From positions 434,001-498,000 of the forward strand of contig NZ_QUMT01000003.1 in the NCBI RefSeq assembly GCF_003387155.1: DNA of 64,000 nucleotides, given 5' to 3'. The translations under genes and the position numbers were made by a program. Every line of letters begins with the position of its first letter. Positions within the stretch are counted from its first letter, which is position 1. The DNA is from Roseateles depolymerans (GTDB lineage Bacteria > Pseudomonadota > Gammaproteobacteria > Burkholderiales > Burkholderiaceae_C). Below, piece after piece: positions 27,168-31,258 of the stretch. Below the pieces are notes generated by a model. That model saw nothing but the letters and a program-made list of their open reading frames with translations. It did not search any database and was not told the origin of the DNA.

Positions 27168-29717
27168 CTAGGCCGGATCACCCGGCGCCTCCTCACCCAG
27201 CGCCTGCGCCACCAGGGCCGCCTGCTCCCTGCGGTGCACGGCCAGGGAGGACGTGGCGCCCGATGCGGTCGTGGGCCGGCACACACAGCGCAGGCGCACC
27301 TGGGGCGGCAGCAGCGGCTCCAGGTGTTCACGCACGAAGCTCCAGGCGCCCTGGTTGCGGTGCTCTTCCTGGACCCAGGTCAGCTCCACCGCCGCCGGAT
27401 AACGCGCCAGTACTTCACTCAGCGCTTCGGCGGGAAACGGGTAGAGCTGCTCCAGGCGCAGCACCGCCAGGTCGGCGCGTCGGACGGCCTGCCGGGCCTG
27501 GTCCAGGTCATGGAAGACCTTGCCGCTGCACAGCAGCAGTCGCTCCACCTGCGCGGCGCTCTCCACCCGGTCATCATCCAGCACCGGCTCGAAGCGACCG
27601 TTGACCAGTTGCGCGAGCGTGGCGTGGGAGGCCGGCTGGTGATAGAGCGTCGCCTTGGGCGTCATCACCACCAGCGGCTTGCGCTGGGGCGACAGGCCCT
27701 GGTGCCGGAGCAGGTGGAACCACTGGGCCGCGGTGGAGGGGAAGGCCAAGCGCAGGTTGTCCTGGCCGCACAGCAGCAGGAAACGGCTGAGATAGGCGCT
27801 GGAATGGTCCGGCCCCACCCCTTCATGGCCATGCGGCAGCAGCACGGTCAGGGCGGAGCGGTAGCCCCATTTGTCTTCGCCCGAGCTGATGTACTGGTCC
27901 AGGAACACCTGGGCGCCGTTCACGAAGTCGCCGAACTGCGCTTCCCAGATCGTCAGGCCCTCGGGCTGCTGCACGCTGTAGCCGTATTCGAAGCCGAGCA
28001 CCGCTTCCTCGGACAGCGGGGAGTTGTGGATCTCGAACCGCGCCGCGCCCTCCCCCAGCAGCTGCAGCGGCACCTGCTCCAGCGGCGGCTGGTCCTCGCC
28101 CTGGGACACCCACACCGCCTGGCGGTGCAGGAAGGTGCCGCGCCGCACGTCCATGCCGGAGATGCGGATGGGCACGCCTTCGGTCAGCAGCGTGGCGCAG
28201 GCCAAACTCTCGCACAAGGCCCAGTCGGCCTTGTGCGGGCTGCCAGGCGCGACGGCCTTTCGCCAATGGTCGATCAGGGTCTGGACGATGACGTGGGGCT
28301 GGAATTCCGGCGGCAGTCGCGTCATGGCCTCCACCAGCGCCCGCAGCCGCTGCTCGGTCACCGGGGCCGCTGGCGCATGGGACGTCGCCGTGCCCTCAGC
28401 CGGTGGCCAGGGCGGCATCCGCGGATCGGAAAACGCCTGATGCGCCTTCCACCGACGCCGCGCCACGTGGCTGTCCATCTCTTCGCCAGCGGCCACGCCT
28501 TCGGTCTTCAGCCGGGCGGCGTAACGGTCGGCCACGCTGCTGTGGCGCTGGGTCAGGGCATGGATGCGCGGACGGGTCAGCGCAGGCACGTCGCTTTCGG
28601 AATGCCCCAGACGTCGGTAGCCGATCAGGTCGATGACCACGTCCGACCCGAACCGCGCGCGCCAGTCCAGGGCCATGGCAGCGGCGCGCAGGGCCTGCTC
28701 CGGATCGTCCGCATTCACGCGCAGCACCGGCGCGTCCACCATGCGGGTCACGTCGGTGCAGGTCTGTGGCGGCCAGCGGCACATGGGATTGGGCTCGGTA
28801 AAGCCCACCTGGTTGTTGATGATGATGTGGACCGTCCCGCCCACGGCATATCCCGGCTTGGTGCCCAGCATCAGGCTCTCCATCACCACGCCCTGCCCGG
28901 CAAAGGCGGCATCGCCATGCAGCATCAGCGGCAATACGCGCTGGGCACCGTCCGCGCCCAGCTGGTCCTGCTGCGCCCGGGCCATGCCCAGCAGCACCGG
29001 ATGCACGCTCTGGAGGTGCGAAGGGTTATGCGCCAGGGTGAGGTGCACCCATCCCTGGGGCGTCTGCAGCCTCCGCTCGCCGCCCAGGTGGTAGACCAGA
29101 TCGGTATGGCGCTCGGGCTGAGGGGACTGGGAGTCGAAGAAATCGAGCACCTGCGCGGGCGGCATTCCCAGCAGGTTGATCATGACGTTCACCCGGCCGC
29201 GGTGCGGCATGCTCATCAGCACCCGCTCCGTCCCGTGCCCGGCCGCTGCTTCGCAGACGGCATGCAGCAGCGGGATGAGCGCCTCGCAGCCCTCCAGCGA
29301 AAACCGCTTGCCATGCGGGAAATGCAGCGCCACATGCTCTTCCCAGGTCTGGGCACGGATCAGATGTTCCAGCAGAGCCAGCCGCTCCTGGTGGCCCTGC
29401 GGGGTGGGCGGCGCCGCCTCCATGCGCTGGTAGAGCCACTCCCGCCGTTCATCCTCCCGCACCGCGGACGCATCCAGCGCCAGCGTGCCGCAGTAGATGG
29501 ACTTCAGGCACCGGTCCAGGTCGGCCACGGTGCGTGCGCTCCATAGCGGTGTGCCGGCCGCATTGAGCCATTCGGACGGTTGCAGCCCAAAGGCGTGCGG
29601 GGACAGGGCCGCCAGGTCCGCCGGCCGGCTCAGCTGCAAGGGATCAAGGGCCGCGCAGCGGTCGCCCAGCCGTCGGTGGGCGTCGATGAAGGCCAGCACC
29701 TCGGGGCGTAGCTTCAC
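27168..29717 (-). CDS. 2-oxoglutarate dehydrogenase E1-like enzyme, orphan and N-terminally short
   Basis: 849 residues. Strong match to the thiamin-diphosphate E1o family: [49 protein letters not shown], the cofactor region [11 protein letters not shown]...[12 protein letters not shown], and [19 protein letters not shown]. Both substrate-loop His residues of E. coli SucA appear kept. The protein begins at the segment aligned with about residue 85 of SucA, so the N-terminal peptide that binds E2 is absent. No E2 or E3 gene is nearby. The start is a GTG overlapping the chemoreceptor stop (GTGA), which shows translational coupling. It may act alone as a 2-oxo acid decarboxylase or carboligase. 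Substrate unknown. Confidence 0.9.
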
Positions 29718-31258
29718 AACACAAAGGCCTTCACGGCGTCGTTCAACTGGGCGGCCTGGTCCTGCAGGGCGCGGGCGGCCGCCGTGCTCTGCTCCACCAT
29801 GGCCGCGTTCTTCTGTGTGGTGTCGTCCATCTGGATGATGGCGGCATTGACCTGTTCGATGCCCAGGCTCTGCTCCCGGCTGGACGCGCTGATCTCGGCC
29901 ACGACCCCGCTGACCTGCTGGATGCCCGAGACCACCTGCTGCATGGTGCTGCCGGCCTGCGTCACCAGGCGGCTGCCGGCGCTGACCTGCTGGGTGGAGG
30001 CCTCGATCAGGGCCTTGATCTCCTTGGCGGCGCCGGCCGAGCGCTGGGCCAGTGCCCGCACTTCCGAGGCCACCACCGCGAAGCCCCGTCCGTGCTCTCC
30101 AGCGCGCGCCGCTTCCACCGCGGCATTGAGCGCCAGGATGTTGGTCTGGAAGGCAATGCCGTCGATGACGCCAATGATTTCCCCGATGCGCTGCGACGAC
30201 GCAGAGATGGCATTCATGGTGCTGACCACTTCTCCCACCGCACTGCCGCCCTGCGTGGCCACCTGCGAGGCCGACACCGCCGTGGCACTGGCCTGGTTGG
30301 CATGGTCCGCGCTCATGCGCACGGCCGCCGTCAGCTGCTCCATCGCGGAGGCCGTCTGCTGCAGGGCGCTGGCCTGGGCCTCGGTGCGGGCGGACAGGTC
30401 CGCATTGCCCTGCGCCACTTCGTGGGCCGCCGCCGTGATGGTGACCGCACCGCGCCTGACGTCCGACACGATCCGGTGCAGGCTGTCCACCATGTGCTGC
30501 AGCGCTGCCACCAGGCGTCCGATTTCATCGCGGCTCTGCGCCACCGGGTGATAGGTGAGGTCGCCCTTGGCCACATCCTCGGCCAGCGCGATGGCGCCGT
30601 GGATGCGGGTGGTGATCGAGCGGGTGATGCTGTAGGCAGTCAGCACGCCCAGCAGCACCGCCACCACCGCCACGCCGGCCATCCACTGCTTGGAGCGGCG
30701 CGCATCTTCGTTGGCGCGGGCCACGTCGGTCTGCATGGCCTGGGCCTGGTAGTCCACCATCTTGTCGATCAGCGCGTAATAGCGGGCCTGCAACCGGGCC
30801 ATGTCGCCCTGGTAGATGGCCATCGCCTGCTCCCGCTGACCGGCCGCCACCAGCTCGAACAGCTTGCGCACAGCCGCGCCATAGTCCTTGCGCGCCACCG
30901 ACTGCTCGGCAAAGATGGCCTTGCCTTCATCGGTGTTGAGCATCTTCTCGAACTTGGCGAAGTTCTCGGTGTTGGCGGCTCGCACCTTGGCGTAGTCGTC
31001 CATGTAGCGCTTGCCCTGCTCTGCATCGGTGCTGAGCAGCAGTCGCCCGATGACGATGACGCCCTGGTCTCCCACGTTCTTGATGTCGTCGCTGACGGCG
31101 ATCTGGGCATACCGGTCCTGGACGAGCTGGTCCATGGTCTGGCTGAGGCGCGTCAGCACGGAAAACGCCACTGCAAGGACCAGCAGCAGCAGGATCAACA
31201 CCACGGCGAAGGCGGCAGACAGCCGCGTGCCGATGTTGAGGTCGGACAGTCTTGGCAT
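29714..31258 (-). CDS. Methyl-accepting chemotaxis protein
   Basis: 514 residues from the ATG at 31258, with AGGGAG upstream. TM1 (about 15-35, [20 protein letters not shown]), a periplasmic four-helix-bundle type sensor (about 36-185), TM2 (about 187-207), HAMP, then the cytoplasmic signalling domain with the fully standard hairpin tip ([39 protein letters not shown]). There is no C-terminal CheR-binding pentapeptide. It signals to CheA/CheW, which are not in this window. The ligand is unknown. The next gene, an E1o-like enzyme, is coupled to it. Confidence 0.95.

Follow-up and report, generated by a model that had tools for sequence, protein, structure and literature searches.

We analysed a 64,000-nucleotide stretch of the Roseateles depolymerans genome (contig NZ_QUMT01000003.1, positions 434,001–498,000; hereafter the window), in which a gene for a methyl-accepting chemotaxis protein (MCP) adjoins one for a protein resembling the E1 component of 2-oxoglutarate dehydrogenase (E1o), here termed the orphan E1 (Table 1). 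It is well supported that the two form a dedicated two-gene module, comprising one chemoreceptor with a conserved periplasmic sensor and one free-standing E1o-type thiamin diphosphate (ThDP) enzyme, which is found in several genera of Burkholderiales. The MCP has the 4HB sensor, HAMP and MCPsignal domains that define a 4HB-type chemoreceptor, and its start is probably the second methionine (MPRLS, position 31258). AAGG can be read ten bases 5' of the GTG start of E1. No SucB- or Lpd-like open reading frame (ORF) was detected among the ORFs of at least 80 amino acids (aa) in the window (E up to 1e-4), in agreement with the original prediction that no E2 or E3 gene lies nearby.

That prediction also deduced, from the GTGA shared by the MCP stop and the E1 start, that the two proteins are translationally coupled. 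The overlap itself is confirmed, but it is not general: among the relatives compared, an overlap with a credible E1 start occurs only in the window's genome. In most relatives the probable E1 start lies about 1 to 330 nt 3' of the MCP stop, and at four loci (L115, L116, L128 and L281) the longest E1 ORF extends back across that stop. The two genes are thus likely co-transcribed, while translational coupling is not a general feature and for the window is predicted only from the overlap. A scan for flagellar-sigma-type promoters 5' of paired receptors gave 10 of 12 in 7 of 44 regions versus 6 of 220 shuffles, the comparison being with shuffles only; the window reached 9.

Table 1. Coordinates of the receptor and enzyme genes in the window
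Feature	Position	Strand	Basis and remarks
Methyl-accepting chemotaxis protein (MCP)	29714..31279	-	ORF, Pfam; 4-helix-bundle sensor (4HB_MCP_1/TarH), HAMP, MCP signalling domain; 521 aa
Periplasmic ligand-binding domain of the receptor	30710..31174	-	155 aa; alignment A5; no insertion or deletion among 26 paired receptors
MCP signalling domain	29819..30283	-	PF00015, residues 333-487
Orphan 2-oxoglutarate dehydrogenase E1-like protein	27168..29717	-	849 aa; directly 3' of the MCP gene
GTGA overlap of MCP stop (TGA) and E1 start (GTG)	29714..29717	-	Four bases; sequence

Receptor and enzyme accompany each other

The original prediction had set the absence of the pair from close relatives as its own refutation. 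Searched across Burkholderiales, the pairing was present in close and distant relatives alike, with a chemoreceptor directly upstream of the orphan E1 at 77 of 80 distinct loci from three families. These loci comprise the window, 65 distinct members of a first set of 66 (L035 and L215 are the same gene) and 14 further ones; a same-strand upstream receptor was found at 63/66 loci of the first set (gap <500 nt) and at 14/14 of the further set (gap <600 nt). The three E1 loci lacking one are that of genome G002 and those of two paralogues designated class C, one with a Reg_prop-type histidine kinase upstream (L136) and the other at a contig end (L138). As a control, none of the 59 non-orphan E1 loci where an E1 was called has an MCP upstream, a count in which a few loci hold little upstream sequence and to which 18 further loci, giving no calls, do not contribute.

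The reverse search relied on a sensor-domain profile that splits receptors cleanly (210–261 bits versus at most 97). Receptors with this sensor domain adjoin an orphan E1 in 62 of 66 cases, three others being at contig breaks and one standing alone. By group, the figures are 21/21 in the window's genus, 14/14 in the genus of genome G212 (taken as Herbaspirillum, since the pair and its surroundings are the same in H. aquaticum L037) and 27/31 in a sample of the family of genome G193, where three of the pairs have broken frames. Of the other four in that family, two are truncated where a contig ends, their E1 lying at the end of a different contig; one is located at a contig end, and the fourth is that of genome G1157. 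The broken-frame pairs are L353 (G879), L346 (G1061) and L347 (G972); in G879 neither the receptor nor the E1 has an intact frame, as would follow from joint loss or poor sequencing.

Pairing in both directions rules out chance adjacency. Across 31 pair neighbourhoods, the MCP and E1 families are the only ones present in 31/31, the next reaching 5/31, and the pairing persists down to ~46% E1 identity while the neighbours vary. We therefore hold with high confidence that the pair is a functional unit, and it probably forms a sensing unit.

Phylogeny and distribution

The window's genome (G000) encodes three E1o genes: a housekeeping SucA, the class A orphan of the window and a class B orphan (L126). 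The class B orphan also has a receptor directly upstream and thus constitutes a second MCP–E1 pair. The original prediction allowed that the window copy might be the genome's only sucA. A copy simply serving the citric-acid cycle is, however, ruled out by the separate housekeeping sucA, which has sucB and lpd adjacent and an Rfam sucA motif in front. The window E1 is 41% identical to this SucA and 39–43% identical to the SucA of relatives.

In the E1 tree, 28 orphans and 32 SucA (including four rows from other phyla or classes) are split by a single branch with an SH-aLRT support of 100. In the receptor tree, 25 paired receptors, counting L233 and L240, whose pairing was confirmed at their loci, form one clade with support 100 against 28 other receptors of the window's genome and two unpaired receptors from the genus of G212. 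Classes A and B of the window's genus group together, apart from the rest, in both trees, a pattern expected from joint duplication of the two genes.

A profile built from 14 orphan E1s gave 1075–1498 bits for orphans and at most 957 for other E1s among the matches listed. By this measure the orphan E1 occurs in 15/16 genomes of the window's genus, 15/34 of the genus of G212, 27/349 of the sample of G193's family (in which Trinickia and Caballeronia types are represented) and 17/339 of the sample of the window's family, spanning 10 genera; the surveys of large groups scored two E1 or ten receptor candidates per genome, so copy numbers are lower bounds. Named carriers include Trinickia terrae, Herbaspirillum aquaticum, Roseateles noduli, Caballeronia sp. 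M1242 and Paraburkholderia phymatum. Both chromosomes and plasmid records carry the pair, one example of the latter being a 784-kb record of Eleftheria terrae (WP_301260567/WP_301260568).

An E1 that keeps its active site and lacks the docking segment

The window E1 comprises the Pfam domains E1_dh, Transket_pyr and OxoGdeHyase_C and scores above the NF006914 cut-off (941.5 bits versus 764). Its residue 6 aligns with residue 91 of E. coli SucA, placing the protein's beginning near SucA residue 86, one residue from the ~85 first proposed. The N-terminal E2-binding domain PF16078 is absent in 18/18 orphan E1s scanned (14 orphans together with L036, L355, L363 and L367) and present in 27/27 SucA (26 of the 30 rows of alignment A3, the other four being orphans, plus the window genome's own SucA). 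Also missing from the orphan E1 is the segment equivalent to residues 18–40 of human E1o, the likely contact with E2o and E3 (PMC8146983; this and the other papers named below are cited from part of their text).

A second difference maps to positions 642 and 644, equivalent to E. coli SucA R733 and E735. Arg and Glu occupy these positions in 126/126 SucA rows, OdhA retains both, and neither residue is found in any of the 80 orphan rows (66 + 14, including at least the duplicate L035/L215 and omitting L226, whose frame is broken). A role for R733/E735 was not found in print. Position 208 is Lys in 126/126 SucA rows and is lost in orphans; as the non-orphan Azospirillum E1 L294 has Pro there, loss of this Lys was not used as an orphan mark. 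The missing PF16078 upholds the earlier claim that the E2-docking segment is lost and, with the replaced Arg and Glu, supports a prediction that the orphan is an E1 without the usual E2 docking.

The catalytic apparatus, by comparison, is preserved, as the original prediction had stated for the ThDP region and the substrate-site His residues. The ThDP HGD/NN motifs are kept, and H172, H210 and H638 correspond to E. coli SucA H260, H298 and H729 as counted on the alignment. Counted in the same way, the four His residues named as catalytic in OdhA (PMC10415282) align with H172, H210, H372 and H638, all of which are kept in 78/80 orphan rows. Only the two class C genes, which lack this receptor, depart from this, with H210Q, H372N and H638Q beside a retained H172. 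Invariant across 80/80 rows are H172, the ThDP residues D269 and N302, and E570 of the LSEEA motif.

Four positions separate 2-oxoglutarate from 2-oxoadipate enzymes (PMC8146983), and here the orphans carry a 2-oxoglutarate-type pocket, with F139, F306 and D597 in 80/80 rows and Y209 in 74/80 (Phe in four, His in the two class C genes). These residues rule out 2-oxoadipate specificity. Between the window's genome and G001, the ratio of nonsynonymous to synonymous substitution rates (dN/dS) is 0.14 for E1, indicating purifying selection, compared with 0.075 for the MCP and 0.045 for SucA in the same two genomes. The enzyme is quite likely to be active.

The sensor domain sets the paired receptors apart

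The window's genome contains 41 MCPsignal matches. The sensor domain of the window receptor is 39–89% identical to those in 30 rows of paired receptors (L279 and L293 being the same gene) and only 10–25% identical to those of 28 unpaired receptors of its own genome, whose signalling domains are nevertheless 55–70% identical to that of the window receptor. Conserved positions specific to paired receptors, in a contrast of orthologues with paralogues, number 23/155 in the ligand-binding domain, 5/55 in HAMP and 5/251 beyond HAMP (10/306 from HAMP to the tail).

Neighbouring genes and other E1 paralogues

A gene for a GAF-GGDEF protein often lies downstream of class A pairs (window 25172-26242, minus strand; loci L115-L125), and one for a GGDEF protein often lies upstream, of the Reg_prop/Y_Y_Y-GGDEF type where tested (L120 and L125); cyclic di-GMP genes thus flank the taxis genes. 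Near the pair in the window (18734-22459, plus strand) is a gene for a 1241-aa protein that joins CheB, CheR, PAS, histidine kinase and receiver domains, and several relatives likewise have such a CheB-CheR-kinase fusion gene close to their class A pair. Class A pairs repeatedly have upstream of them a small ORF whose product contains an RxHxGRxYxL-like motif (window 31486-31887, minus strand; L122:5923-6177; L124:5108-5347; L125:9928-10155), the window copy having no Pfam match.

At class B loci (L126, L128-L135 and L137), MCP and E1 are separated by a conserved leader of ~100 nt with a hairpin of the CCGGCC-GCAGAG-CCGG type. Its consensus energy is -14.0, compared with -7.4 +/- 2.4 for 50 column shuffles, and no Rfam match was found in L128-L132, the class B loci searched. 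The class C E1 paralogues (L136:7073-9856 and L138:4797-7469), which are without this receptor, have a higher dN/dS of 0.29. In L136, a response regulator and the Reg_prop histidine kinase lie upstream on the same strand at a gap of 390 nt or more. A candidate partnership of class C E1 with this kinase is represented by that one locus; the L138 contig ends, and its upstream fragment is unlike the kinase.

Two further E1s were encountered outside the orphan group. The Azospirillum brasilense plasmid E1 (L294:6794-9463) was excluded as a member because it retains PF16078 and the Arg/Glu pair; it adjoins genes for an acyl-CoA dehydrogenase, a CoA transferase and a TRAP transporter, with no annotated E2, and is possibly a catabolic E1 that borrows E2. 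In Paraburkholderia sp. BL9I2N2, L106:5722-8553 encodes a SucA-like E1 whose N-terminus is full; its branch is long (0.69), neither sucB nor lpd was called beside it, and it is perhaps a different kind of extra E1.

Proposed working of the module and its alternatives

The best overall explanation, which we advance tentatively, is that a 2-oxoglutarate enzyme working independently of E2 shares a single signal with a receptor that has one fixed ligand. E1 would act without E2 on 2-oxoglutarate or a close 2-oxo acid, either decarboxylating its substrate or condensing the ThDP-bound C4 unit with an aldehyde or oxo acid, as E1o enzymes are able to do when the lipoyl acceptor is absent. The small molecule made, or less likely consumed, by E1 would be the ligand fixed for the receptor's sensor domain, and the receptor would signal to CheA through its ordinary signalling domain. 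Taxis would thereby be tied to enzyme flux, toward either a self-made signal or conditions that alter 2-oxoglutarate turnover. A link between metabolism and taxis, or an enzyme-made signal, had been suggested in the original prediction, and is likewise what we infer.

Because the residues specific to paired receptors are concentrated in the periplasmic sensor, a ligand tied to the enzyme's chemistry is preferred over direct docking, for which contact at HAMP was also considered; such a ligand is a plausible proposal held with some reserve. A narrower form, in which E1 makes an acyloin-type molecule from 2-oxoglutarate and the co-encoded receptor senses exactly that molecule, is rather unlikely as a specific account. 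If it holds, the pair would be a synthase and its receptor, and the signal guiding cells would be determined by their own central carbon and nitrogen status.

Several observations weigh against a shared signal. With the enzyme expected in the cytosol and the sensor domain in the periplasm, a signal made by E1 would need a way out of the cell, and the 31 pair neighbourhoods share no exporter gene. The E1 of G002 has kept its active site, and no such sensor domain occurs anywhere in that genome; conversely, the G1157 receptor has no E1 and lies beside a transposase-like ORF. Nor do the two class C E1s have such a receptor, although their loss of three of the four catalytic His residues was counted as support for the module. 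The module is also sporadic, being found in 2/399 genomes order-wide (the window's own and G212) and 1/398 phylum-wide (its own), and absent from 1/16 of the window's genus. Part of the enrichment of paired-specific positions is expected for any orthologous receptor group, and the activity, ligand and contact of the module are putative, being deduced from sequence.

Alternatively, and with less probability, E1 could itself be a sensor rather than a signal maker: it would bind the cytosolic side of the receptor, perhaps at HAMP, and its substrate-bound or turnover state would bias the output, so that an external ligand and internal 2-oxoglutarate are read together. One-to-one pairing with no third gene would suit such an arrangement, as would the five paired-specific residues among the 55 HAMP positions. 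OdhA/KGD is known to shift between resting and active conformations (PMC10415282), and partner proteins have precedents in CetA/CetB of Campylobacter (PMC2628428) and AcnB-TlpD of Helicobacter (PMC6978683). The contact between E1 and receptor is hypothetical, however; few of the cytosolic positions beyond HAMP (5 of 251) are paired-specific, and, in contrast to CetA, the receptor possesses a conserved sensor domain of its own.

A catabolic linkage, in which the receptor senses an external 2-oxo acid and E1 initiates its breakdown with E2 and E3 borrowed from the housekeeping set, in the manner of mitochondrial DHTKD1, is unlikely, a little more so than a sensory E1. A chemoreceptor gene adjoining that of an enzyme for the receptor's ligand is a well-known arrangement, the pocket residues are those of a 2-oxoglutarate enzyme, and several species of the window's genus have their class B pair at a distance of some kilobases from sucA. 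A bacterial 2-oxoglutarate chemoreceptor, McpK, is also on record, with a different sensor fold (PMC5126104). Against this, the orphan E1 lacks the region of likely E2o/E3 contact (PMC8146983), and R733/E735 are replaced throughout, whereas OdhA, which uses a lipoyl-lysine, retains both. The cell already has SucA for 2-oxoglutarate. Nor is any transporter, regulator or follow-on enzyme conserved beside the pair in the 31 neighbourhoods, which speaks against plain catabolism.

Mere co-expression, with the two genes under a common promoter and carried together while their products serve separate processes, would fit an occurrence on chromosomes and plasmid records, through which the pair could travel as a cassette, but is improbable given that the pairing outlasts E1 divergence and changing neighbours and that receptors of this type are almost never found without E1.

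A shared signal thus stays our preferred, if tentative, reading. No description of an MCP–E1 pair was found in the full-text literature among the matches listed, which were judged by titles and abstract openings and leave most subscription journals outside. The pair represents known parts in a combination we have not seen described; should the receptor's ligand be a product of the enzyme, this would understate it. To our knowledge, ligands are unknown for most chemoreceptors; here, a genome-encoded partner enzyme narrows the search to 2-oxo acids and their carboligation products. If the proposal is correct, a sensory system has co-opted a citric-acid-cycle enzyme family as one of its dedicated components, providing a testable link between metabolism and movement in Burkholderiales.

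Comparison with known systems

The window E1 shares with SucA its three Pfam domains and its ThDP and substrate residues. It differs in lacking both PF16078 and a neighbouring sucB/lpd, in belonging to a separate clade with R733/E735 replaced, and in adjoining a chemoreceptor. Carboligase activity is described for KGD/OdhA-type enzymes, which the original prediction named as the closest case. That likeness holds for the E1o catalytic module with its same four His residues and is otherwise loose: KGD/OdhA carries its own E2-type domain (PMC10415282), whereas the window E1 has no Pfam match to a fused E2-type succinyltransferase domain, falls below the cut-off of the KGD/OdhA family NF008907 (849.4 bits versus 878) and has the Arg/Glu pair replaced. 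DHTKD1 (E1a) resembles it as an E1 paralogue beside a housekeeping E1. DHTKD1 binds E2o, and its 2-oxoadipate pocket has Tyr, Tyr and Ser at E. coli F227, F394 and Y297 (PMC8146983), in contrast to the 2-oxoglutarate-type F139, F306 and Y209 of the window E1.

Among chemosensory systems, CetA/CetB, which mediates energy taxis, likewise pairs a membrane receptor with a distinct cytosolic protein, and the two are co-encoded (PMC2628428). In the window, by contrast, the partner is a ThDP enzyme instead of a PAS protein, and the receptor has a 155-aa sensor domain of its own. TlpD-AcnB of Helicobacter pylori provides a case of a citric-acid-cycle enzyme as chemoreceptor partner (PMC6978683). There a housekeeping aconitase moonlights, whereas the window E1 is a dedicated paralogue encoded together with its receptor.

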